Part shown: positions 7,673-22,115 of the stretch, one piece after another
How the letters are laid out: each line of letters opens with the position of its first letter
How positions within the stretch are numbered: position 1 is the stretch's first letter
Source: Alphaproteobacteria bacterium
Lineage (GTDB): Bacteria; Pseudomonadota; Alphaproteobacteria; Reyranellales; Reyranellaceae
Direction of reading: 5' to 3'
Assembly: GCA_017308235.1 (NCBI GenBank)
Contig: JAFKFL010000007.1
Coordinates: 1-64,000, forward strand
Length of the DNA: 64,000 nt
Notes under the pieces: model-generated
Told to the model about the DNA's origin: nothing
What the model saw: the letters and a program-made list of their open reading frames with translations, nothing else
Databases searched by the model: none
Program-made: the position numbers and the translations under genes

Positions 7673-8140
7673 CTACACGCCAGGTCGCGCACGCTTGCGC
7701 ATGACGAATGCCGGGCCGAAGCGGGTCGAGGTCTCGCCGAGCAACTCGAAGCCGCACTCGGCGTAGAAGGGGAGGGCTCGACGGCCGGCGATCACGTACA
7801 GCCACGTCGCCTGTTCAGCCGCTGCGACCTTCGCGGCCTCGTCGACGAGACGACGACCGATCCCTTGTCGCCAGGTGTGAGGCTCGACGAACAGCCCGTC
7901 GAGCTCCGCATCGCCGTCCGGCCGTGAAAGCACGACGCAGAAGCCGCCGATTCGGTCCCTGAACTCGGCAATATGGACGCGCTCCGCCTCGATCTGGTCT
8001 ACGGCCAAGGCCATCGCATCGGGGTGCGCCAGCAAATCGGCGCGATGGTCGTCCCATTCAAGGGAGGCGCGGCGCTGCAGCTCTTCCAACGCTTGCCGTT
8101 CGTCGCGGCGGGCGAGGCGGACCAGGATGTCGGTCGGCAT
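7673..8140 (-). CDS. GNAT-family N-acetyltransferase
   Basis: The 155-residue protein has the single-domain GNAT fold: motif A as LDGLFVEPHTWRQGIGRRLV (about residues 78-97) with the acetyl-CoA loop RQGIGR, and the later PFYAECGFELLGE segment normal for this family. It would transfer an acetyl group to an amine of unknown identity. It begins 10 bases after the stop of the TauE/SafE gene and may be the last gene of the methionine operon. It converges on the quinone oxidoreductase gene. Confidence 0.85.
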   Translation of the reverse strand: MPTDILVRLARRDERQALEELQRRASLEWDDHRADLLAHPDAMALAVDQIEAERVHIAEFRDRIGGFCVVLSRPDGDAELDGLFVEPHTWRQGIGRRLVDEAAKVAAAEQATWLYVIAGRRALPFYAECGFELLGETSTRFGPAFVMRKRARPGV

Positions 8141-8150
8141 CGAATGATGA

Positions 8151-8876
8151 TTACCTTATTGCTTCCCAGATCAGTGTCGCGCCTGCGATCAGCATCACGC
8201 CATCGAGCAGGCGCTGGAAGGTGGCGACATGCAATCGCTCGAGCAGCAGGCGCGCGGCATAGGTGCCGGCCATCACTGACGAGCCGGCGATCAGACCCTT
8301 CACGACGACGTCTGTCGGCAGGGCGCCCAGCGTGCGGAAAGTCGCAGCTTTGGAGATATAGAGCGCCAGCGAGCCTGCTGCTTCGGTGGCGATGAACGCA
8401 CCTTTCACAAGGCCATAGGCGCTGAACAGCGGCACACTGAGCGGCCCTGTCGAGACGACGATGCCGGTCAGGAAGCCGATCGCGAAGCCCGACGGAACGA
8501 GCACGCCCGCGCCGATCTGGTAATTGCGGTTGGCGAGCCAGTGCCGCCCCGGGATCATGACCAGGAAGAAGACGCCGAGCGCGAGGTCGATGACCGAAGG
8601 CGGCAGCTCTAGGAGGGTGCGCGCACCAAGTGCGGCGCCGGGAATGCCGCCCAGCGCATAGGCCGCCGTCGCGCGCCAGTCGATCTCCTTCCACCAGGAG
8701 GTGATCTTGGCGAAGTTCGACATCAGCGCGACGATGGCCATGATCGGCACCGCTTCGATCGGGCCGAAGGCAAGGACCAACACAGGCAGAAGGATGACCG
8801 TGGCGCCCGTGCCGACAACGCCGCTTACCAGGCCGGCGACGGCACCAACGGCTAGGACAAGAGCGTAGGTCAGCAT
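8151..8876 (-). CDS. TauE/SafE family anion exporter
   Basis: A 241-residue inner-membrane protein of about eight helices. The first helix carries VGAVAGLVSGVVGTGATVILLPVL and a repeat of the same theme follows after GAGVLVPSGFAIGFLTGIV, the internal duplication of the TauE/SafE family (PF01925). Family members export sulfite, sulfoacetate or related anions. The gene starts only 12 bases after metH ends, on the same strand, so it is probably co-transcribed with the methionine operon, which fits a role in sulfur balance (inference). Confidence 0.85.
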   Translation of the reverse strand: MLTYALVLAVGAVAGLVSGVVGTGATVILLPVLVLAFGPIEAVPIMAIVALMSNFAKITSWWKEIDWRATAAYALGGIPGAALGARTLLELPPSVIDLALGVFFLVMIPGRHWLANRNYQIGAGVLVPSGFAIGFLTGIVVSTGPLSVPLFSAYGLVKGAFIATEAAGSLALYISKAATFRTLGALPTDVVVKGLIAGSSVMAGTYAARLLLERLHVATFQRLLDGVMLIAGATLIWEAIR

Positions 8877-8888
8877 TTCCGAAAGAGG

Positions 8889-11531
<2,643 letters not shown>

Positions 11532-11539
11532 TTTCGAAC

Positions 11540-12595
11540 TCAAAAGAAACTCGCTGCTTCCATGCCGGAGAGGCGGAGCGCCGGCGGCAGGACGTGCCAC
11601 TGGCGCGGCTTCACGCCCTTCACCGCCTCGGCGATTGCCTTGATGTGGGCGGGCGTCGTGCCGCAGCAACCACCCACCACGTTCAGCCAGCCGTTCTCGG
11701 CCCAACCCCTTACCAGCTTGGCCGTCATCTCGGGCGGTTCGTCGTAGGCGCCGAGCTCGTTGGGCAGACCGGCGTTGGGATAGATGCAGACCAGCCCGTC
11801 GACCTGCGGGTTGAGCGCGTTCACGTAAGGATGCAGCTCGGTGGCGCCGAAGCTGCAGTTCAGCCCCATGGTGAGCGGCCGGGCATGGCGCACCGAATGC
11901 CAGAAGGCCTCGACCGTCTGGCCTGAGAGGTTGCGGCCGGCAAGATCGGTCAGCGTCATGGAGACCATGACGGGGATCTCCTCGTCGCGCGCCTCGCCGG
12001 CCTCGTCGACAGCGACGATCGCGGCCTTGGCGTTCAGCGTGTCGAACACGGTCTCGACCAGGATGAAATCGACGCCGCCATCGAGAAGGCCGTCGACCTG
12101 CTCGCGATAGATGCCCTTCACCTCGTCGAAGGTGACGGCGCGATAGCCCGGATCGTTGACGTTGGGCGAGACCGACAGCGTCTTGTTGGTCGGGCCGAGC
12201 GCGCCCACGACGAAGCGCGGCTTGGCGGGGTTGCGTTTCGTGGCCGCGTCGGCGCAGGTGCGGGTCAGCTTGGCGGCAGCGAGGTTGATCTCGCGCGCCA
12301 TGCCCGCGATGCCGTAATCAGAGAGGCTGATCGCGTTGGCATTGAAGGTGTTGGTGGCCAGCAGGTCGGCGCCGGCCGCGATATAGTCCTTGCAGATCGC
12401 GCCGACCACGTCAGGCCGGGTAAGGTTCAGAAGGTCGTTGTTGCCTTTCTGGTCGTGGGTGAAATCGCGACCGCTGCGAAAGCCCGCCTCGTCGAGCTTG
12501 TAGGTCTGGATCATCGAACCGTAAGGCCCGTCCTTCACCAGGATGCGCTCCTGCGCGAGCGCGCGGAGCTGCTCGGCCTTTTCGATGCGTGTCAT
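11540..12595 (-). CDS. metH: Methionine synthase, homocysteine-binding half
   Basis: 351 residues forming the zinc-dependent homocysteine S-methyltransferase barrel (PF02574). The N-terminus has [17 protein letters not shown], the middle [13 protein letters not shown] and the end [14 protein letters not shown]; the first cysteine plus the CC pair are the three zinc ligands that activate homocysteine thiolate. The product supplies the module missing from the 880-residue MetH gene downstream. Start at 12595 overlaps the metF stop by ATGA, so the two are translationally coupled. Split MetH is known in some Alphaproteobacteria such as Caulobacter, so this is not a frameshift artefact in my view. 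Confidence 0.93.
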
Positions 12596-13542
12596 GACGG
12601 ACTCCTTTGCGGGCGCACGCCCAACAAATGGCAGATCGCGAACGTGAGGTCCGCGCGATTCAGGGTGTAGAAGTGGAACTGCTCGACGCCTTCGCTCTGC
12701 AGGCGGCGGCAAAGATCGCCGGCCACGGTGGCGGCGATCATGCGCCGGGTCTCGACATCCTCTTCAAGGCCGTCGAACAGGTGGGCGAGCCAGCTCGGTA
12801 CCTTGGAGCCGCATCCGCCGGCCATCTTCTGGATGCCCTGGAAGTTCGACACCGGCATGATGCCCGGCACGATCGGCACATTGACGCCAACCGTGGCCGC
12901 GCGGTCGCGGAAGCGCAGAAAATCCTCGGCCTCGAAGAAGAACTGGGTGATGCAGCGCTCCGCACCCGCATCGACCTTGCGCTTGAGATTGTCGAGATCG
13001 GCTTCGTTGTTCGCCGAATCGGGATGCTTCTCGGGGTAACCGGCGGCGCTGATCTGGAAGGGACCGATTTTCTTCAGGCCGGCGATGAGCTCGGCGGCAT
13101 TGGCATAGCCGCCGGGGTGGGGCGTGTATTTGCCGCCGATGCCGCCGGGCGGATCGCCGCGCAGCGCCACGATGTGACGGATGCCCGCGTCCCAATAGGC
13201 GCGCGCCACGTCGTCGATTTCATCTCGCGTGGCGGCAACGCAGGTGAGATGGGCCGCGGGATCGATCCCGGTCTCCTTCTTCAGCCGCACAACTGTTTCG
13301 TGCGTGCGCTGGCGCGTCGATCCGCCGGCGCCATAGGTGACGGAGAAGAACGTCGGCCGCAGCGGCGTGAGACGCGTCACGGTCTCCCACAGGGTGCGTT
13401 CGGCCGCCTCGGTCTTGGGCGGCGAGAACTCGAACGACACCTCCAGCCGCTGCGGGGCGCGCGCCGGGAAGTGGGCGTCGTTGAGGCCGAACGGGGCCGC
13501 GCTCATCGGCTCGGCATGGAGTGGGCCGGTGTCGGGACTCAT
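12592..13542 (-). CDS. metF: 5,10-methylenetetrahydrofolate reductase
   Basis: 316 residues with the FAD-binding TIM barrel of MetF. Diagnostic segments are VSFEFSPPKTEAAERTLW near residue 36, FFSVTYGAGGSTRQRTH, HLTCVAATRDEIDD, VALRGDPPGG and the late FHFYTLNRADLTFAIC. It reduces methylene-THF to methyl-THF, the methyl donor used by the two MetH halves encoded downstream. The GTG/ATG context gives a start at 13542 that overlaps the stop of the upstream ArsR gene by ATGA; an internal ATG (MSAAPFG) at residue 13 is an alternative. Middle gene of the methionine operon. Confidence 0.94.
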   Translation of the reverse strand: MSPDTGPLHAEPMSAAPFGLNDAHFPARAPQRLEVSFEFSPPKTEAAERTLWETVTRLTPLRPTFFSVTYGAGGSTRQRTHETVVRLKKETGIDPAAHLTCVAATRDEIDDVARAYWDAGIRHIVALRGDPPGGIGGKYTPHPGGYANAAELIAGLKKIGPFQISAAGYPEKHPDSANNEADLDNLKRKVDAGAERCITQFFFEAEDFLRFRDRAATVGVNVPIVPGIMPVSNFQGIQKMAGGCGSKVPSWLAHLFDGLEEDVETRRMIAATVAGDLCRRLQSEGVEQFHFYTLNRADLTFAICHLLGVRPQRSPS

Positions 13543-14531
13543 CGAGAAACTCCCCCTTGTGCGGACAGACTGGACAGGCCGGCCGAGCGCGGCGCCGTGC
13601 GCTCCGGCAATTCACGCTCGCCGCGCCAGATGCCGGTCATCAAGCGCCGGCCGGGAAAATGGATCGGTTCTAGCGGCGTGAGGCCGGCGCTTCTCAACCA
13701 GCCCTGGACCTGATTGTCGGCGAAGCCCAGGTGGACGTGCGCATGCTCGCGCTTCAGCTCGACAAGATCGTGCGGCGAGAAGTCGACCACCAGCACTACG
13801 CCACCCGGCCGCACCACGCGTGCAGCCTCGGCCAGCGCGGCCGCCGGATCGTCGGCGTAGTGCAGTACGTGGTGGATGGTGACCACGTCGAAGCTCTCGG
13901 CCTCGAAGGGCAGGGCATACATGTCAGCCTGGCGGATGTCGGCATTGTCGATGCCGGCACGGGCGAGGTTGGCGCGTGCGAGTGCCAGCATCTCGCGGCT
14001 CTGATCGACGCCCACCGCCTGCTCGACCCGGGGCGCCAGCACTTCCAGCAGCCGGCCGGTGCCGGTGCCGATGTCGAGCAGCCGACGCGCGCCGATCGGG
14101 AAATGATGGGCCAGTGCCAGCTCGATCTCGCGATCGGCCACGTGCAGGGCCCTGAGCTCGTCCCAGCGCTGGGCGTTGTCGCGGAAGAAGCGCACGGCCG
14201 CGGTCTGGCGGCGCTGCTGCAGGGCATCGAGCCGGGCGCGGTCGGTGGCAAGCCGCGGATGCTTGGGGTCGAGGCGTCGCACGAACTCGCGCACCAGTGC
14301 TGCGTCGTCGCCCTCGGTGACGAGGCGGAAGCGCGTGAACTGTGCCTCGCGAAACCGCTCCAGCAGGCCGCCCTCGACCAGAAGCTTCAGGTGCCGCGAG
14401 ACGCGCGGCTGGCTCTGGCCAAGCACATGCACGTAGTCGCTGACCGTCAGATCCTCACGCGCGGCCAACGCCAGGATGCGCAGTCGAGTGTCTTCCGCCG
14501 CCGCCCGAAGCAAAGTGAGAAGGTGATCCAT
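13539..14531 (-). CDS. ArsR-family regulator fused to a SAM-dependent methyltransferase domain
   Basis: 330 residues in two parts. Residues 1-90 are an ArsR winged helix (EDTRLRILALAAREDLTVSD, then GQSQPRVSRHLKLLVEGGLL), lacking the cysteine metal-site motif of ArsR sensors. Residues about 140-310 form a class I methyltransferase with motif I LLDIGTGTGRLLEVL, VDQSREML and HHVLHYADDPAAALAEA. Heading the metF-metH operon with an ATGA overlap, it is best explained as a regulator that senses SAM or SAH through its methyltransferase domain. SahR, an ArsR protein controlling SAM-cycle genes in Proteobacteria, is the known analogue; whether this protein has retained catalysis cannot be told. Confidence 0.85.
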   Translation of the reverse strand: MDHLLTLLRAAAEDTRLRILALAAREDLTVSDYVHVLGQSQPRVSRHLKLLVEGGLLERFREAQFTRFRLVTEGDDAALVREFVRRLDPKHPRLATDRARLDALQQRRQTAAVRFFRDNAQRWDELRALHVADREIELALAHHFPIGARRLLDIGTGTGRLLEVLAPRVEQAVGVDQSREMLALARANLARAGIDNADIRQADMYALPFEAESFDVVTIHHVLHYADDPAAALAEAARVVRPGGVVLVVDFSPHDLVELKREHAHVHLGFADNQVQGWLRSAGLTPLEPIHFPGRRLMTGIWRGERELPERTAPRSAGLSSLSAQGGVSR

Positions 14532-14538
14532 AGTCTGA

Positions 14539-14567
14539 ATGATATAAGCATATCTTTATGTGTGCAA
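14539..14567 (-). promoter_or_regulatory. Promoter of the methionine operon with operator in the spacer
   Basis: Reading the minus strand, TTGCAC (14562-14567) and TATCAT (14539-14544) are separated by 17 bases, a good sigma-70-type promoter. The spacer and -10 edge contain GATATAAGCATATC on the plus strand (14541-14554), a GATAT-N4-ATATC inverted repeat of the AT-rich kind bound by ArsR/SahR-like repressors. The start point would fall at about 14532, one base before the ATG, giving a nearly leaderless message. Confidence 0.6.
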
Positions 14568-14568
14568 G

Positions 14569-14582
14569 GCACATGTATGTGC
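14569..14582. promoter_or_regulatory. Perfect 14-base palindrome in metF/mlaA divergent region
   Basis: GCACATGTATGTGC has 6-base perfect arms around GT, lying two bases above the -35 box of the methionine-operon promoter. It may be a second operator, or belong to the mlaA side. No binding protein can be assigned. Confidence 0.4.
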
Positions 14583-14597
14583 AGGGACCGATACGAG

Positions 14598-14619
14598 AAT
14601 GTGGCCGCAGCGCCACATT
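14598..14619 (+). other. Hairpin in the mlaA leader
   Basis: AATGTGGC (14598-14605), a 6-base loop and GCCACATT (14612-14619) form a perfect 8-bp stem followed by TTA. It lies in the divergent region between the methionine operon and mlaA, upstream of the second hairpin at 14685-14707. The pair suggests a structured leader or a short RNA on the plus strand. Confidence 0.45.
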
Positions 14620-14684
14620 TTACGGGCTGTTGCTCTCGCACCTCTTCAAACTGGACCGGGCCTATGCAACACTTCTCTGAGTGG

Positions 14685-14708
14685 CGGCCCGTACAGGGCC
14701 GTCTTTTA
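14685..14708 (+). terminator. Terminator-like hairpin upstream of mlaA
   Basis: CGGCCC (14685-14690), loop GTACA and GGGCCG (14696-14701) are followed by TCTTTTA, an intrinsic-terminator shape on the plus strand. No plus-strand gene precedes it in the divergent region, so it is either a transcription attenuator in the mlaA leader or the end of a small RNA. An upstream CGGGCC (14657-14662) can pair with GGCCCG (14686-14691), which would exclude the terminator. Confidence 0.55.
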
Positions 14709-14754
14709 GCGTCCAGGCCCTGAGGGGGGTCGGCAGGGGGCTGGATTGACGTCC

Positions 14755-15564
14755 ATGGGCGAGGGTTCTGTGAAAAAATTGGCGGACATCCGCCGGTCAG
14801 CAATGGCTGCGATTGCGGCCACGACGTTGCTTGCCGGCTGCGCGACCCGTGACACGGGGGCGGCCGATGTCTGGGATCCGCTCGAGGGACCGAACCGGTT
14901 CATCTTCGCGATCAATCAGACCGTCGACATGATCGCCATCCGGCCGGTCTCGGTGCTCTATCGTGACTGGATGCCCAAGCCGGCCCAGCGCAGCGTGCAC
15001 AATGCGATGCAAAACCTCGGCGAGCCGGTCACTGCCCTCAACGATGCAGTCCAGGGTGATGGCCACCAGGCCATGACCTCCGTGGCACGCTTCCTGGTGA
15101 ACACGACGCTTGGCGTCGCGGGCCTGTTCGATGTTGCCACGTCGTTCGGGCTCAAGAAGAGCGACAACGACGCCGGCCAGACGATCGGCTACTACGCCGG
15201 CGTCCAGCCCGAGAACGGTGGCTTCTACCTGATGCTGCCCCTGATCGGGCCGTCCAATGCGCGTGACGCCGTCGGTCTGGTGGCCGATTCGGCGGTCGAT
15301 CCATTCGGGATCGCGATCTACAGCCTAAGCAGCAGCACGGCCTACTGGATCTATGCCGGCACCCGCTACGGCACCACGGTGATCGACACGCGCGTGCGGA
15401 CCATGACAGCACTCGACGACCTGCAGCGAAACAGCGTCGACTATTATGCGGCCCTGCGCAGCGCCTATACGCAGCGCCGCGCCGAGCAGATCCGCCTGAA
15501 GCGGGACAGAACCAGCCCACAGGCCGAGTTGGAGCGACGCGACAATCTCGCCTTGGTACGCTAG
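14755..15564 (+). CDS. mlaA: MlaA (VacJ) family outer-membrane lipoprotein
   Basis: About 269 residues. A lipoprotein signal ends in TLLAGC (lipidated Cys near residue 29), followed by WDPLEGPNRFIFAINQTVD, the hallmark start of the MlaA domain, and later the conserved NTTLGVAGLFDVAT and PENGGFYLMLPLIGPSNARD segments. MlaA removes mislocalised phospholipids from the outer leaflet of the outer membrane and hands them to periplasmic MlaC, encoded next. The start is uncertain: TTG at 14746, ATG at 14755 and GTG at 14770 (VKKLADIRR, preceded by GAGGG) are all possible; I give the ATG. The MlaFEDB inner-membrane complex is not in this window. Confidence 0.88.
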   Translation: MGEGSVKKLADIRRSAMAAIAATTLLAGCATRDTGAADVWDPLEGPNRFIFAINQTVDMIAIRPVSVLYRDWMPKPAQRSVHNAMQNLGEPVTALNDAVQGDGHQAMTSVARFLVNTTLGVAGLFDVATSFGLKKSDNDAGQTIGYYAGVQPENGGFYLMLPLIGPSNARDAVGLVADSAVDPFGIAIYSLSSSTAYWIYAGTRYGTTVIDTRVRTMTALDDLQRNSVDYYAALRSAYTQRRAEQIRLKRDRTSPQAELERRDNLALVR

Positions 15565-16321: not shown

Positions 16322-17131
16322 ATGGATAGCGCAGTCGTCAAGAACACGGCCGAGCGCCGCTCGGTCGATCCGGTCTGGAGCAAGATTCGGGAGGCCGCGC
16401 AGGCGGCGGCCAATGCCGAGCCTGTGCTGGCCGGAACGTTACACGCCACGATCCTGAGCCAGCCGCGGTTCGAAAACGCGCTCAGTTACCATCTCGCGCG
16501 CCTGGTCGGCACGACCGAGGTGCCGGCGGCCCTGATCCGCCAGACTTTCGACGAGGCGTTGAATGCCGATCCCACCATTGGGCTCGCCGCGCGCGCCGAC
16601 ATCATGGCGGTCGCCGAGCGCGACCCGGCCTGCACCTCGCATCTCGATCCGCTGCTCTGGTTCAAGGGCTATCAAGCGCTTCAGGTCTATCGGGTCGGTC
16701 ACTGGCTGTGGAAGCAGGGCCGGCACGCGTTGGCTCACTATCTGCAAAGCCGCGCGAGCTCGCTGTTCGGGCTCGACATCCATCCCGCCGCGCTGATCGG
16801 CAAGGGCCTCTTCCTCGACCATGGCACCGGCATCGTGATCGGCGAGACCGCGGTCGTGGAGGACGGCGTCTCGATGCTGCACGGCGTGACGCTGGGTGGC
16901 ACGGGCAAGGAGCGCGGCGATCGCCATCCCAAGGTCCGGCGCGGCGTGCTGCTGGGCGCCGGCGCCAAGGTGCTGGGCAATATCGAGATCGGCATGTGCG
17001 CCAAGATCGCCGCCGGCAGCGTGGTGCTGGAGCCGGTGCCGGCAGGCTGCACGGCCGCCGGCGTGCCGGCGCGCATCATTGGCTGTGTCGACGTGCCCGA
17101 GCCCGCGCTGGAGATGGATCAGCGGATCTGA
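16322..17131 (+). CDS. cysE: Serine O-acetyltransferase
   Basis: 269 residues with the CysE layout: an N-terminal helical domain (ATILSQPRFENALSYHLARL) and a left-handed beta helix of hexapeptide repeats from about residue 155, containing DIHPAALIGKG, DHGTGIVIGETAVVEDGV and the catalytic HGVTLGGTGK. It acetylates serine with acetyl-CoA for cysteine synthesis. A clear AAGGAG lies at 16309-16314 before the ATG. The neighbourhood (sulfur/nitrogen assimilation and methionine genes) fits. The C-terminal tail after GVPARIIG is 20 residues and ends in QRI; SATs end in isoleucine when they bind the cysteine synthase CysK, so complex formation is plausible. Confidence 0.93.
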   Translation: MDSAVVKNTAERRSVDPVWSKIREAAQAAANAEPVLAGTLHATILSQPRFENALSYHLARLVGTTEVPAALIRQTFDEALNADPTIGLAARADIMAVAERDPACTSHLDPLLWFKGYQALQVYRVGHWLWKQGRHALAHYLQSRASSLFGLDIHPAALIGKGLFLDHGTGIVIGETAVVEDGVSMLHGVTLGGTGKERGDRHPKVRRGVLLGAGAKVLGNIEIGMCAKIAAGSVVLEPVPAGCTAAGVPARIIGCVDVPEPALEMDQRI

Positions 17132-17307
17132 CCGACAACGGCTAGCTGCTCCTCGGAGGCGGGTAGTCGGACCGCTTTCAGATCGCCACAACGAGGCCAA
17201 GGTTCTTCCCGCGACCCAAACCAATATCGGCAGGTTTTCCGTTGGCAGATCAGAAAGGGACCGCCGTTGAGGTCGTACTCAACGACAACACTGTCGCCGG
17301 CGATCAC
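17119..17307 (-). CDS. Small hypothetical protein, 62 aa
   Basis: The GTG at 17305-17307 overlaps the stop of the preceding small gene as GTGA, the coupling seen repeatedly in this genome. The product begins MIAGDSVVVEYDLNGGPF and contains two cysteines in CQRKTCRYWFG and a third in PRCGD. I do not recognise it. Its 3' end overlaps the convergent cysE by 13 bases. Support is limited to the overlap and a plausible composition; it may be a non-coding extension. Confidence 0.4.
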   Translation of the reverse strand: MIAGDSVVVEYDLNGGPFLICQRKTCRYWFGSREEPWPRCGDLKAVRLPASEEQLAVVGQIR

Positions 17308-17477
17308 ACCATAAGTACGGCGGTGATCGCGCCCGTCAGCGCCGTGACCGTGAACACGACCAGGGTGATGAAGGATAGGACCGTGCGCTCCCTCTGCCGC
17401 GCACGGGCTTCGCGCCTCAAGTGGTAGTCCACTTCTATTGGCGCGCGATCGCGCCAGCCAGCGATCGGATCGATCAT
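17304..17477 (-). CDS. Small single-pass membrane protein, 57 aa
   Basis: ATG at 17477 is preceded by GGGGGA at a normal distance. The 57 residues have a charged N-terminal half (EVDYHLRREARARQRER) and one transmembrane helix near residues 35-56 (LSFITLVVFTVTALTGAITA). I do not recognise a family. The frame is open for 90 codons upstream, but that part has no start-site support. The next small ORF starts within its stop codon. Confidence 0.55.
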   Translation of the reverse strand: MIDPIAGWRDRAPIEVDYHLRREARARQRERTVLSFITLVVFTVTALTGAITAVLMV

Positions 17478-17811
17478 GGCTTTCCCCCAAGTGACGCCAC
17501 GCGCGGATATGGATCGGGTGTCTGCTGCCCTTCCCAAGGCAGCAGAACCCACGATCAGCCCATCGGACCTTTCGGCCCGCTGTTGTCGCCGTGACGATGT
17601 CCCCACACACCGTTGTCCTGTCCGGCAGCACGGACAGCAGTCCGAGCCATCGCCCAGGTACGCAGTCGAGACCCCTCCCGGCCGCGCGATACACAATCTA
17701 CGGATGTCGAGCGGGCGAATCTTTTCAGGACGCGGCCAAAATTGTGACAACTGGGAGCGAACAGCCTGATGGGACGGCTGAAATGCAGCCGGAGCCGCGG
17801 AGCGTTAGCGG
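17478..17811. other. 334-base stretch without a supported gene
   Basis: Open frames exist on both strands (for example plus-strand 17476-17769) but none has a convincing ribosome site, domain or hydrophobicity pattern. The only structure I see is AGCCGC (17793-17798) pairing with GCGGCT (17808-17813) across the stop of the flavoprotein gene, a modest hairpin without a U-tract. It should hold the promoter of the 57-residue membrane protein gene; no clear -35/-10 pair stands out. Confidence 0.5.
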
Positions 17812-19485
17812 CTAGTAGACGTCCGCTTGATACCGGCCCTTCTTCTTGAGATCCGCAACGAAAGCGCCGGCCGCTGTGTCGCTCATGCCGCCGTGTTCGG
17901 CAGTGATGGCGACCATCGCTTTCTCGACGTCGCTGGCCATCCGCTTGGCATCGCCACAGACATAGAAATGTGCGCCGCGTTGCAGCCAGGCCCAAAGCTC
18001 CGCAGCCTCGGCGTGCATGCGGTCCTGTACATAGGTCTTGGGCGTCGACTGATCGCGCGACCAGGCAAGGGAGAGCCGGGTCAGGGTTTGGGCCTCTTGC
18101 AGGCCCGCGAATTCGTGCTCGTAGAAGAAATCGCAGGCGCGGCGCTGGTGACCGAAGAACAGCCATGTATCGCCGGGCGCCTGGGTGATCATCCGTTCCT
18201 GCAGGAAGGCGCGGAACGGCGCCACACCGGTTCCAGGTCCCACCATGATGATGGGTGCCTCGGGATTGGCCGGCAGAGCGAAGTTGTGCGCCCGCTGGAT
18301 GTAGACTTTCAGCGGCGTACCGGGTGCGAGGACGCGCGATAGGAACGTGGAGGCGACGCCCAGCCTCTCGCGGCCGTCGATCTGGTATCGGACATGATCG
18401 ACCGTGAGCGCGAGCCGGTTGGGATCGACCTTGGGCGAGGACGAGATCGAGTAGAGCCGGGGCTGCAGCCCCTCCAGGCATTCGACGAAGGCTTCGGGGT
18501 CGGGCCGGATACCAGGGAACTTCTGCACTGCTGCCAACACGTCGAGCGTGGCGGCGTCACCGTCGGGATCCTCGCCTTGTGCCAGCGCCTTGGCCTTCGC
18601 CTTGCGCGCGCCACCCACCATGTACGAGACGAACTCGAACAGCATATCGGGCGCGGCGCCCAGCGACATGTCGTGGGTGAGTACGTCCTGCAGTGGCTTG
18701 CCGCCGACCGGAAAGTCCGCGGGCGCGTTAATTGCCTCGATCACGGCCGCAACGAGTGCGGGATCGTTCGCGGGATAGATGCCGAAGCTGTCGCCGACCG
18801 TGTAGCCGAGGCCCGAATCCGCAAGGTCGAACTCGATGTGCCAGGTCGATTTCTCCGACTCGCCTCTGTTCAGGAGCATCCGCGAAAGGAACCGCGCTTC
18901 GACCGGCATCTCGCGCGAATAGCCGGGTTCGGCCGGCGCTTTGGGCTCAAGGCGTGCCACCACTTTTGCTTCGGCCTTGGCTTTTTCTTCGTCGGGGTCG
19001 ATGGCGCCGCCGCCCATCTCCTCGATGAGCTTCTTCAGCATGCGCGACGTTTCCTTGCCGCCCGGCACGCAGAGATTCAGTCGTTCCTCGGCGTGCTGCA
19101 CGATCTCGTCGGCGTAGGTCTCGCAGGTGTAGCCACACTGACCGCAATCCTGCTGCGCCATGGCCGCCATCATGCGCCGCCGCATGGGACGCTTCTTGGC
19201 CATCTCCATGCGATCGGCGAGGGACAGGGTCGGATCGTGCCAGGGTGCGCCATCGTCATCGCCATCCGCCATCGGATCGCGGAAGGAGGGATCGGCCGCG
19301 GCGGGCAAGGGCGGTAGCGCTGGGTTCGTGGGAAGAGCCGATAGGAGGCCCGCGAAGAAGCCGTTCAACCAGGCGCGTTGCTCCTCGCTGAACGGCGCAT
19401 CCTCGGGGATGAGGTTCACGACCGGCGGAACGTCGGTCGGCCTCTCGGGCATCTCGATCGGCAAGGGCTTTTCCATCACCGACAT
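17812..19485 (-). CDS. FAD/NADPH reductase subunit with N-terminal Fe-S motif (sulfite/nitrite reductase flavoprotein)
   Basis: 557 residues. Residues 195-557 match the CysJ/cytochrome-P450-reductase module: RLYSISSSPK for FAD, MVGPGTGVAPFRAFLQER for NADPH pyrophosphate, YVCGDAKRMASDV and a C-terminal aromatic residue (Tyr). There is no flavodoxin domain. Instead residues 114-139 carry C-x2-C-x3-C-x17-C (DCGQCGYTC then NLCVPGG), like the ARC [4Fe-4S] domain of RnfB. So electrons probably go NADPH to FAD to Fe-S to the NirA-type reductase encoded three bases upstream. This makes it the reductase partner for six-electron nitrite (or sulfite) reduction. It is the last gene of the FNT-nirA operon. 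Confidence 0.82.
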   Translation of the reverse strand: MSVMEKPLPIEMPERPTDVPPVVNLIPEDAPFSEEQRAWLNGFFAGLLSALPTNPALPPLPAAADPSFRDPMADGDDDGAPWHDPTLSLADRMEMAKKRPMRRRMMAAMAQQDCGQCGYTCETYADEIVQHAEERLNLCVPGGKETSRMLKKLIEEMGGGAIDPDEEKAKAEAKVVARLEPKAPAEPGYSREMPVEARFLSRMLLNRGESEKSTWHIEFDLADSGLGYTVGDSFGIYPANDPALVAAVIEAINAPADFPVGGKPLQDVLTHDMSLGAAPDMLFEFVSYMVGGARKAKAKALAQGEDPDGDAATLDVLAAVQKFPGIRPDPEAFVECLEGLQPRLYSISSSPKVDPNRLALTVDHVRYQIDGRERLGVASTFLSRVLAPGTPLKVYIQRAHNFALPANPEAPIIMVGPGTGVAPFRAFLQERMITQAPGDTWLFFGHQRRACDFFYEHEFAGLQEAQTLTRLSLAWSRDQSTPKTYVQDRMHAEAAELWAWLQRGAHFYVCGDAKRMASDVEKAMVAITAEHGGMSDTAAGAFVADLKKKGRYQADVY

Positions 19486-19488
19486 GAA

Positions 19489-21246
19489 TCAAACTCCCGC
19501 CAGGCGGTGCAGGCTTTCATCGTCGTGGCGCTGGGCGAACTGCTGGAAGGTTTCGTTCGGACTGGCGCGATGGGCGAGGTAGGCGGCGAGCAGGCGCTCG
19601 ATGAAGGCCGGCGTATCCGTCGCCTTGATCTCGCGCGCGAACTCGCGGCCGATTTTCGCATCGCTGCCGTAGCCGCCGCCGATCACGACGTTGTAGCCGT
19701 CGACCGTGTCGTCCTCGCCTGCGGCGACGCGCGCGCCCACGAGGCCGATGTCGCCGATATAGTGCTGGGCGCAGGAGTTGGGGCAGCCCGTGAGATGGAT
19801 GTTGATCGGCGTGTCGAGCTTGATGCGTGGATCGCAATGCTCGGCGATGGCGATCGCCATCTCCTTGGTGTGCGCGTTGGCGAGCTTGCAGCCCGAGGAG
19901 CCGGTGCAGGCGACCAGCCCGGCGCGCAGTGGCGAGACAGTGAGCGAGAGACCGGCTGCGGCGATGCGCTGGGCGAAGGCCGCGCGGTTGGCCTCGGCGA
20001 TGCCCGACACGAGAAGGTTCTGCCACACGGTGAGGCGGACATGGCCGTCGCCCAACTCGCTGGCGGCATCGGCCAGGATGCGCATCTGCGCCGGCTCGAG
20101 CCGACCTACCGGCAGGGCGATGCCGGCATAGTAAAGGCCGACCTGCTTCTGCGCATGGAAACCGATATGGGCCAGCCGGTCCTGCGGGGGACGGGGCAGG
20201 ACGTGTTGCTGCTCGACGCGATCGAGCTTGTGGCCGAGCTTCTCCTCGACAGCGGCCAGGAACTTTTCCAGGCCCCAGGCATCGATCAGGTACTTCATGC
20301 GGGCCTTGGCCCGGTTGGTGCGGTCGCCATGGTCGATGAAGACACGCACGATGGCGTCCGCGACTTTGGTCGAGTCCTGTGGCGCGACGACGACGCCGGT
20401 CGGTCGCGCGAGATCCTTGTGGCCGGTGATACCGCCCAGCCCCAGCCGATACCAAACGCCCGGTGCCACCGCGGCACCTTCCGCCACCTGCACGGCGGTG
20501 AAGCCGATGTCGTTGGTCTCCTCCAGTGTCGGGATCGGTCCGCCGCCGTCGAAACTCACATTGAACTTGCGCGGCAGGCCGGTGAGGGAGCGGTCATTCA
20601 GCACATGGAAATGCCAGCGCCTGGTGTCGGGTCTCGTATCCAGAAGCTCGTGCGACGCGATGCCTGCCGTCGCATCGCCCGTGACGTTGCGGATGTTGTC
20701 GGCGCCGGAGCCGCGCGAGGTGAGGCCGAGGTCCTGCACCGCCTCGACCACATTGGTGGTGTTCCTGGCCTCGATGCCGCGGATCTGAATGTTGGCGCGC
20801 GTCGTCACGTGCGCGTGACCCGCACCCCAGGTCTCGGCGATGTCGGCGATGCCCGCAAACTGGCGTGCGCTCAGGATGCTGTTGGGCATGCGCAAGCGTG
20901 CCATATAGAAGGGCTGGTTGGGCGCGAGATAGAAGAGGCCGTAGAAGCGCCAGCGGAAATTGTCCGCGGGCTTGGGATATTCATTGCGCGCGGCCTGGTC
21001 GCAAAGCCGCGCGTAGCCATTGAACGGATGCTCCTCGCGCTTCCATTTTTCCGGATCGGCCAGCTTCTTGCCATCGGCTTCGAAGCGCGCCATGGCGGCA
21101 AGATGTGCGGCGTCCGGCCCGCTGGGCGCAGGCTCGGTGGGAACAGGAGCGCGTGCACCGCTGCGTCCGGCCTGCAGACCGGACGCGAACCCTTCGAGGT
21201 AGCGCTTCTGCTCAGGCCGGAAATCCTGCGCGCTCACGGATCTCAC
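19489..21246 (-). CDS. Assimilatory nitrite/sulfite reductase, siroheme and [4Fe-4S] (NirA/CysI-like)
   Basis: 585 residues with the duplicated ferredoxin-like and siroheme-binding repeats of the NirA/CysI family. The cluster motif is CTGSSGCKLANAHTKE followed by TGCPNSCAQHY (C-x5-C ... C-x3-C), whose last cysteine bridges the cluster to siroheme. HVTTRANIQIRGI is the conserved substrate-side strand. It reduces nitrite to ammonia or sulfite to sulfide. The GTG start overlaps the stop of the FNT nitrite channel gene as GTGA, which favours nitrite. The flavoprotein gene downstream should supply electrons. A variable N-terminus (RPEQKRYLEGFASGLQ) resembles that of the flavoprotein (SEEQRAWLNGFFAGLL), perhaps a shared docking helix. 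Confidence 0.88.
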   Translation of the reverse strand: MRSVSAQDFRPEQKRYLEGFASGLQAGRSGARAPVPTEPAPSGPDAAHLAAMARFEADGKKLADPEKWKREEHPFNGYARLCDQAARNEYPKPADNFRWRFYGLFYLAPNQPFYMARLRMPNSILSARQFAGIADIAETWGAGHAHVTTRANIQIRGIEARNTTNVVEAVQDLGLTSRGSGADNIRNVTGDATAGIASHELLDTRPDTRRWHFHVLNDRSLTGLPRKFNVSFDGGGPIPTLEETNDIGFTAVQVAEGAAVAPGVWYRLGLGGITGHKDLARPTGVVVAPQDSTKVADAIVRVFIDHGDRTNRAKARMKYLIDAWGLEKFLAAVEEKLGHKLDRVEQQHVLPRPPQDRLAHIGFHAQKQVGLYYAGIALPVGRLEPAQMRILADAASELGDGHVRLTVWQNLLVSGIAEANRAAFAQRIAAAGLSLTVSPLRAGLVACTGSSGCKLANAHTKEMAIAIAEHCDPRIKLDTPINIHLTGCPNSCAQHYIGDIGLVGARVAAGEDDTVDGYNVVIGGGYGSDAKIGREFAREIKATDTPAFIERLLAAYLAHRASPNETFQQFAQRHDDESLHRLAGV

Positions 21247-22073
21247 TCGGCGGCGACAGGGGCGGCGACCGCATCACTGACGGCCGCCGTCCTGGGGCGA
21301 TAGGTCAGGTAGATCGCGAGGCCGGTGAAGACGAAACCGCCAACGAAATTGCCGAGCGTGACCGGGATCTGGTTCCACAGCCACCAATCACTGAGCGTCA
21401 CCTTGGCGCCCATCAGCATGCCCGTGGGAATGATGAACATATTGACGACAGCGTGCTCGAAGCCCTGGGCGAAGAAGACGAAGATGGGCAACCACGCCGT
21501 TACCACCTTGCCCACCGTCGAGGTGGTTGTCATTGCGAGCACCACGGCGAGGCATACCATCCAATTGCAGAGCATGGCGCGCACAAAGGCGGTGATCCAT
21601 CCGGCCACACCGAACGCCGCGAAGCCGTTGGTCTTGGCTTCGGCGACCTGCACGATGCGCTGTGCGACACCGGCCGGTGCGATCGCCCACATGTCGGTGA
21701 GCGCGATCGCCAGCAGCACGCCGTACAGCACACTGCCGACGAGATTGCCGAGGAACACCCAGCAAAGATTGACGCACACATCGCGCAAGGTGGCGCGACC
21801 CTCGATATAGGGCAGCGGCAGAAGAGCAAAGCTGCCCGTCAGCAGCTCGAGTCCCAGAAGCACGATCGCGACCAGGCCGATGGGAAAGATGATAGCGCCG
21901 ACAATCGGCTGGCCGGTCGTCACCGCTCCGGTAAAGGCGAGGCTTGTCGCCACGCCCAGGATCGCGCCCGACAGAATGCCGCGAACGAAGAGATCGGTGG
22001 GCGCAATCGCGAGCTTCGCCGTCCCTGCATCGACCATCGCCTGGGCAACAGTGGTCGGTTTCACATAATCCAT
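21243..22073 (-). CDS. Formate/nitrite transporter (FNT) family channel
   Basis: 276 residues, six membrane helices in the FNT fold: a first half with GAILGVATSLAFTGAV and LTGSFALLPLPY, a second with FVRAMLCNWMVCLAVVLAM and GFEHAVVNMFIIPTGML, where GFEHxxxNM is the family signature carrying the central histidine. It conducts nitrite or formate with protons; coupling to nirA argues for nitrite uptake. I start at ATG 22073 because AGGAT lies five bases before it; the ATG at 22085 has no ribosome site. A sigma-54-type promoter lies 43-58 bases upstream. Confidence 0.9.
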   Translation of the reverse strand: MDYVKPTTVAQAMVDAGTAKLAIAPTDLFVRGILSGAILGVATSLAFTGAVTTGQPIVGAIIFPIGLVAIVLLGLELLTGSFALLPLPYIEGRATLRDVCVNLCWVFLGNLVGSVLYGVLLAIALTDMWAIAPAGVAQRIVQVAEAKTNGFAAFGVAGWITAFVRAMLCNWMVCLAVVLAMTTTSTVGKVVTAWLPIFVFFAQGFEHAVVNMFIIPTGMLMGAKVTLSDWWLWNQIPVTLGNFVGGFVFTGLAIYLTYRPRTAAVSDAVAAPVAAE

Positions 22074-22115
22074 GGCGATCCTCATGCTTGGTTGCGGTCG
22101 GTTCCCGACTCCACC

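Follow-up and report, generated by a model that had tools for sequence, protein, structure and literature searches.

A predicted SahR operator within the promoter of a putatively leaderless sahR-metF-metH operon in Reyranella-like Alphaproteobacteria

How is the methionine operon on this 64,000 nt stretch of alphaproteobacterial DNA (the window; contig JAFKFL010000007.1, positions 1 to 64,000) controlled, and where does its message begin? The segment at 14539-14567 immediately precedes a gene for an ArsR-type regulator fused to a methyltransferase domain, with metF and metH genes behind it. Its genus, judged from sequence, is probably Reyranella. We consider it highly likely that the segment holds an autoregulatory operator of SahR within the promoter of a leaderless sahR-metF-metH message, with repression responding to S-adenosylhomocysteine (SAH). 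The system itself is known as SahR; what is new is the predicted leaderless layout, the reappearance of that layout in distant families, and an unusual site at ahcY. Coordinates are given in Table 1.

For 36 loci of the genus, the window's own among them, the sequences before the start codon were aligned on that codon without gaps; where 9 or 11 nt follow the operator block, as in a few regions, the line-up is shifted and the counts come out lower. Farther out, from -60 to -37, every column stays at or below 0.5 bit. Conservation sets in at -36, where the bases of TTGCA (-36 to -32) are kept in 34, 35, 33, 31 and 31 of the 36 regions. Each base of a 20-bp block spanning -30 to -11 is kept in 27-36 regions. 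Beyond it conservation drops, with 22 regions keeping T at -8 and 25 keeping T at -7, and the base at -1 is C or T in 35 regions. This block is the palindrome that we predict to be the SahR operator, and it is the single site of its type in the window. The preliminary description of this DNA had instead taken a GATAT-N4-ATATC repeat in the spacer/-10 region as the operator. The repeat is real, overlaps that region, and is not expected by chance (one occurrence in 64 kb, none in 100 dinucleotide shuffles). We rejected its register nonetheless, because its centre lies 4 bp from that of the conserved 20-mer and its end base at 14541 varies in the genus, with C in 12 regions and T in 19.

The same arrangement was sought more widely. 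A symmetrised matrix of the 36 sites was used to scan at most 250 bp upstream of the gene plus 20 nt into it, at 128 sahR-like loci of which 44 are Reyranella, with a site threshold of 15.6 (the 99.9% point of shuffled regions). In other genera a site above threshold precedes the sahR homologue in 80 of 81 distinct regions, the sole miss being L091, and 8-10 of the 10 palindrome pairs match at 63 of 84 loci, four of them perfectly. A sahR-type site was matched in 40 of 41 Reyranella genomes, nearly always at a single place; the remaining genome (G026) likewise gave no sahR match. Where at least 1 kb of downstream sequence was available, metF follows sahR on the same strand within 300 bp (123 of 125 loci), and where at least 4.5 kb was available metH, counted whether split or whole, is found downstream of sahR (46 of 68). 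This gene order predicts, in silico, that SahR controls metF and metH.

SahR is an established regulator of the SAM cycle. SahR proteins have been described as SAH-responsive, the Desulfovibrio protein among them, and their core targets, meaning those regulated in more than 70% of SahR genomes, include sahR, ahcY, metH, metF and metK (PMC4239095). For Ensifer aridi a gene is listed as sahR (1023), with expression highest in the sahR deletion (PMC8877191). The traits found here are an ArsR helix-turn-helix (HTH), a 20-bp palindrome before the regulator's own gene, and metF/metH control as predicted from gene order. By published description they resemble the ArsR-family SahR of alpha- and deltaproteobacteria, with its 20-bp palindromic site, autoregulation and metF/metH and ahcY targets (PMC4239095, PMC8877191). 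Reyranella differs from known SahR systems in having a promoter joined to the start codon, with the operator in its spacer, in showing no evident metK site, and in an ahcY site with a changed core that lies upstream of its predicted promoter. SamR of the Xanthomonadales is a distant SahR relative that similarly lies beside metH1 and metH2, but its 24-bp motif shares ATC-10 nt-GAT with gamma-proteobacterial SahR sites and is unlike the Reyranella site (PMC4239095).

The second part of the question concerns the start of the message. On the minus strand the window reads TTGCAC, 17 nt, TATCAT, 7 nt and ATG, with the ATG at 14531. A consensus promoter scan of 13800-15200 found one site, at the operon promoter, against a mean of 0.2 in shuffles; its register, TGCACA-16-TATCAT, differs from TTGCAC-17-TATCAT. 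Among 40 distinct Reyranella regions the distance from operator to ATG is 10 nt in 36, 9 in three and 11 in one, with varying intervening bases, and a TTG stands 35-37 nt before the ATG in 39 and a pyrimidine directly before it in 38. Five loci of other families have operators 4-12 nt from the ATG. At 35-37 nt before the ATG all five carry T[T/A]G, which reads TAG in L044 and TTG in the other four, and their gap between T[T/A]G and operator ranges from 5 to 11, so that the operator slides while the promoter-to-ATG distance is fixed. This geometry is, in our reading of the sequences, a stronger argument than constant spacing. As a control, eight Azospirillum loci with a mean SahR identity of 0.87 (Reyranella, 0.90) have 53-103 nt between operator and ATG.

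Shine-Dalgarno matches of at least 3 nt occur in 4 of the 40 Reyranella regions (12.8 in shuffles), in none of the five short-spaced loci (2.3) and in 64 of 76 long-spaced ones (66). At 4 nt or more the counts are 0 of 40 (1.3), 0 of 5 (0.4) and 41 of 76 (34), and at 5 nt or more they are zero, zero and 23 of 76 (10). These data agree with transcription from the A of the ATG, the -35/-10 pair being locked to that start, and a leaderless sahR message, predicted from sequence, is well supported. In long-spaced loci (e.g. L105, L114, L116) TTG[AC] stands 20 nt before the operator in 18 of 76; the operator there would therefore cover the -10 region and not the spacer. Alphaproteobacteria do use leaderless messages, since 375 were mapped in Caulobacter crescentus, 9.6% of its coding sequences (PMC4117421). 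Among the papers listed by literature searches on SahR with leaderless messages, and on SahR in Reyranella, none was on either subject as judged by title. Just upstream of the -35 element, at 14569-14582, is a perfect 6-bp inverted repeat, GCACAT-AC-ATGTGC, in a stretch that is unconserved in the genus.

How far does SahR reach beyond this operon? In the window's assembly a search for the sahR-type site with at most 3 mismatches gave one good site. When the core was relaxed, exactly two perfect matches to CATAAA-N4-TGCTTATAT were found in 6.3 Mb, at sahR and at ahcY, and none to a reversed-pattern control. Two sites have 2 mismatches; the one inspected (L215) has no methionine gene among its open reading frames (ORFs) of at least 150 aa. 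A large SahR regulon was rejected on the count of two perfect sites in an assembly that is 97.99% complete, so a site may have been missed. A search of 37 Reyranella genomes detected ahcY in 36; the analysis covered 30 of its loci. All 30 have the arms of the element, pass the 99% point of the sahR matrix, and have the element exactly 14 bp before TTGAG. A TAWGA-like hexamer lies 17 bp past TTGAG in most (TATGAC in 14, TAAGAC in 7, TAAGAG in 5, four others), a spacing that would put the centre of the element near -60 of the predicted ahcY start. In other families an above-threshold site precedes ahcY in 7 of 12 genomes, five of the seven having an AATT or ATTT core. SahR is thus predicted, in silico only, to control ahcY as well. 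Control by a SAH or S-adenosylmethionine (SAM) riboswitch was also considered and rejected: at the gathering score Rfam gave no match in the window, the ahcY locus or the metK locus, and 13 ahcY loci of other families gave none either.

In the mechanism that we infer, a SahR dimer would bind the 20-bp palindrome, which takes up the spacer between -35 and -10 together with the first three bases of the -10 element, and would thereby block RNA polymerase at the promoter of sahR, metF and the two parts of metH. SAH, on building up, would be bound by the C-terminal methyltransferase-type domain, SahR would release the DNA, and the genes for regenerating methionine from homocysteine would be switched on. 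Apart from sahR, only ahcY, the gene for clearing SAH, has a perfect match to the shared site in this assembly. The transcript would begin at the AUG or one base before it, and its translation would be leaderless. With promoter, operator and predicted transcript start all within 36 nt, a single short DNA segment would allow joint tests of SAH sensing, repression and leaderless translation.

The preliminary description had anticipated much of this. It proposed autoregulation in response to SAM or SAH, which is strengthened by the like site before nearly all homologues and by the reported binding of a Brevundimonas protein of the same operon type to its own promoter (PMC10190100); it did not name SahR, whose published ligand is SAH. 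TTGCAC, the 17-base spacer and TATCAT all stand where it put them. It placed the start one base before the ATG, which would make the message leaderless; the fixed -35-to-ATG distance, the scarce Shine-Dalgarno matches and the pyrimidine at -1 agree with a leaderless message, and the A of the ATG itself suits them no less well as the first base.

Several observations weigh against our reading. In the window alone neither register leads, the 20-mer and GATAT-N4-ATATC each matching 7 of 10 pairs, and it is therefore conservation that decides for the 20-mer. The Reyranella palindrome is imperfect (6-8 of 10 pairs), and the exact GATAT-N4-ATATC pattern is present in 48 of 229 loci examined. TTGCAC, described earlier as a good -35 element, is identical to TTGACA at 3 of 6 positions, so its quality rests on conservation, and the final T of the -10 element is present in 22 of the 36 genus regions. 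The deficit of Shine-Dalgarno matches of at least 4 nt is weak, as such AT-rich stretches give just 1.3 when shuffled, and is clearer at 3 nt. Nine Mesorhizobium loci (mean identity 0.92) have a leader and yet a near-constant spacing, eight of them at 41-43 nt and the ninth at 62 nt; constancy alone is therefore no proof of a leaderless start. The chance of 9e-6 computed for TTG[AC] in four of the five short-spaced loci is optimistic because the five were picked for short spacing. The 99.9% point is passed by only half of the ahcY elements in Reyranella (15 of 30), because their central bases differ, and 5 of the 12 other-family genomes, including the same-order relative G037, have no above-threshold site before ahcY. 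The metK locus has no good SahR site (best score 6.8, below threshold); since the SahR core is defined by regulation in more than 70% of SahR genomes, this absence alone does not exclude SahR membership.

Other explanations were weighed. With the operator and repressor unchanged, the transcript might begin farther upstream and carry a leader, with TTGCA an extended part of the binding site rather than a -35 element. The weak match of TTGCAC to consensus would suit this, as would the 22-103 nt between operator and start at most loci of other genera. It is made unlikely by the absence of anything conserved upstream of -37 in the 36 regions, by the few Shine-Dalgarno matches in Reyranella, and by the short-spaced loci, where across families TTG is fixed relative to the ATG and not to the operator. 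The ligand might likewise be SAM, acting as corepressor; this was suggested for SamR of the Xanthomonadales, whose effector was left open (PMC4239095), and the conserved SAM/SAH pocket motifs fit either ligand alike. The second site at ahcY suits a SAH signal, and the Desulfovibrio SahR is described as SAH-responsive, so we judge SAH the likelier ligand and give SAM little probability.

An arsenic response can be weighed in the same way. In Brevundimonas sp. M20 a protein of the same domain fusion, ArsRM, heads the gene order arsRM-metF-HMT1-metH, and both arsenite methyltransferase activity and binding to its own promoter by electrophoretic mobility shift assay (EMSA) are reported (PMC10190100), so the window protein could be an arsenite-responsive regulator and arsenite methyltransferase whose promoter answers to arsenic. 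Li et al. 2023 claimed arsenite methylation via a Cys134 site, and their EMSA probe held the palindrome CTTTATATAAAG (PMC10190100). This 12-mer differs from the operator centre found here and, together with the reported methylation, adds to the points against SahR; a shift of the whole probe does not, however, fix the binding centre. The window protein has no cysteine at all, nor does SahR at any of the 44 Reyranella loci or at 15 of the 84 others, and for lack of a cysteine we rejected arsenite sensing. Unlike the Brevundimonas ArsRM, then, the Reyranella proteins would not be expected to perform cysteine-based arsenite chemistry. The genomic context is the methionine cycle, and an arsenic-responsive promoter appears very improbable. 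The main text of PMC10190100 mentions SahR zero times. Going by the published description of the M20 protein, SahR and ArsRM are very probably one family under two names. Conflicting claims about ligand and activity would then bear on the same family, and a cysteine-free member could help to settle them.

A more far-reaching version of the SahR reading, to which we lend rather little credence, makes SahR a two-way switch in Reyranella. It would repress sahR-metF-metH from inside a leaderless promoter and act positively on ahcY from the altered-core site near -60 of that gene's promoter. In several alphaproteobacterial families the leaderless sahR layout would, in addition, have evolved or been retained, its promoter tied to the AUG while the operator slides.

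Table 1. Features of the sahR operon promoter, the operon genes and the second candidate site
Feature	Position	Strand	Basis or remark
Predicted SahR operator, 20-bp imperfect palindrome ACATAAAGATATGCTTATAT	14542..14561	-	conserved block; 7/10 pairs; centre between 14552 and 14551
GATAT-N4-ATATC repeat of the preliminary description	14541..14554	.	genuine; out of register with conserved operator
-35 element TTGCAC	14562..14567	-	TTGCA kept in genus line-up; TTG-to-ATG distance fixed
-10 element TATCAT	14539..14544	-	sequence; 17-bp spacer; its first three bases are part of the operator
Predicted transcription start, A of ATG	14531 (alternative 14532)	-	7 nt after -10; pyrimidine at -1; fixed -35-to-ATG distance
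Second SahR-like element ACATAAATTCTTGCTTATAT, changed core	L152 2977-2996 (G000:C6:3947-3966)	-	upstream of ahcY, 14 bp before predicted TTGAGG-17-TAAGAC promoter
sahR, ArsR winged helix and class I SAM-dependent methyltransferase domain, 330 aa, no cysteine	13539..14531	-	PF01022, PF08241; predicted fold
metF, methylenetetrahydrofolate reductase	12592..13542	-	PF02219, TIGR00676; ATGA overlap with sahR
metH first part, homocysteine S-methyltransferase domain	11540..12595	-	PF02574; metH model positions 5-351 of 1234; ATGA overlap with metF
metH second part, pterin-binding, B12-binding and activation domains	8889..11531	-	metH model positions 351-1231; 8 nt after first part

The first gene is as first described: the domain matches bear out an ArsR protein fused to a methyltransferase. 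Behind it come metF and two metH pieces. The ArsR-family HTH (PF01022, E 1.1e-8) spans residues 14-58. The predicted structure has two domains, with mean pLDDT 89.8 and pTM 0.72. No solved structure of the full fusion was recognised among the best 60 of 165 sequence matches or the best 50 of 1991 fold matches; among the fold matches listed, Rv2258c and other two-domain methyltransferases align over their full length only at an rmsd of about 14-21 Å. Across the 128 sahR-like loci SQPR.SRH is invariant, and every fixed letter of D.GTGTG is kept in at least 127. The same assembly holds a 136-aa ArsR-type open frame that is 44% identical to SahR residues 1-87 (L007 1501-1764; G000:C17:109361-109624). 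The labels Asaia bogorensis (L072) and Enhydrobacter aerosaccus (L073) look doubtful or outdated, since the contigs that bear them encode SahR proteins with 92% and 90% identity to that of the window.

A terminator search of 8000-14600 found two against 3.6 expected, none of them at the operon end. MetH is split into two adjacent genes at 8889-12595, and split MetH is known elsewhere (PMC7857596). A sulfur-related gene, for a TauE-type exporter, lies behind metH at 8151-8876. On the other side mlaA and mlaC (PF04333, PF05494; 14746-16228) are divergent and share the intergenic region with sahR. Sulfur-related neighbours follow at 16322-22085, namely a serine acetyltransferase, a flavoprotein reductase, a nitrite/sulfite reductase and a formate/nitrite-type channel, which at a guess carries sulfite or sulfide.
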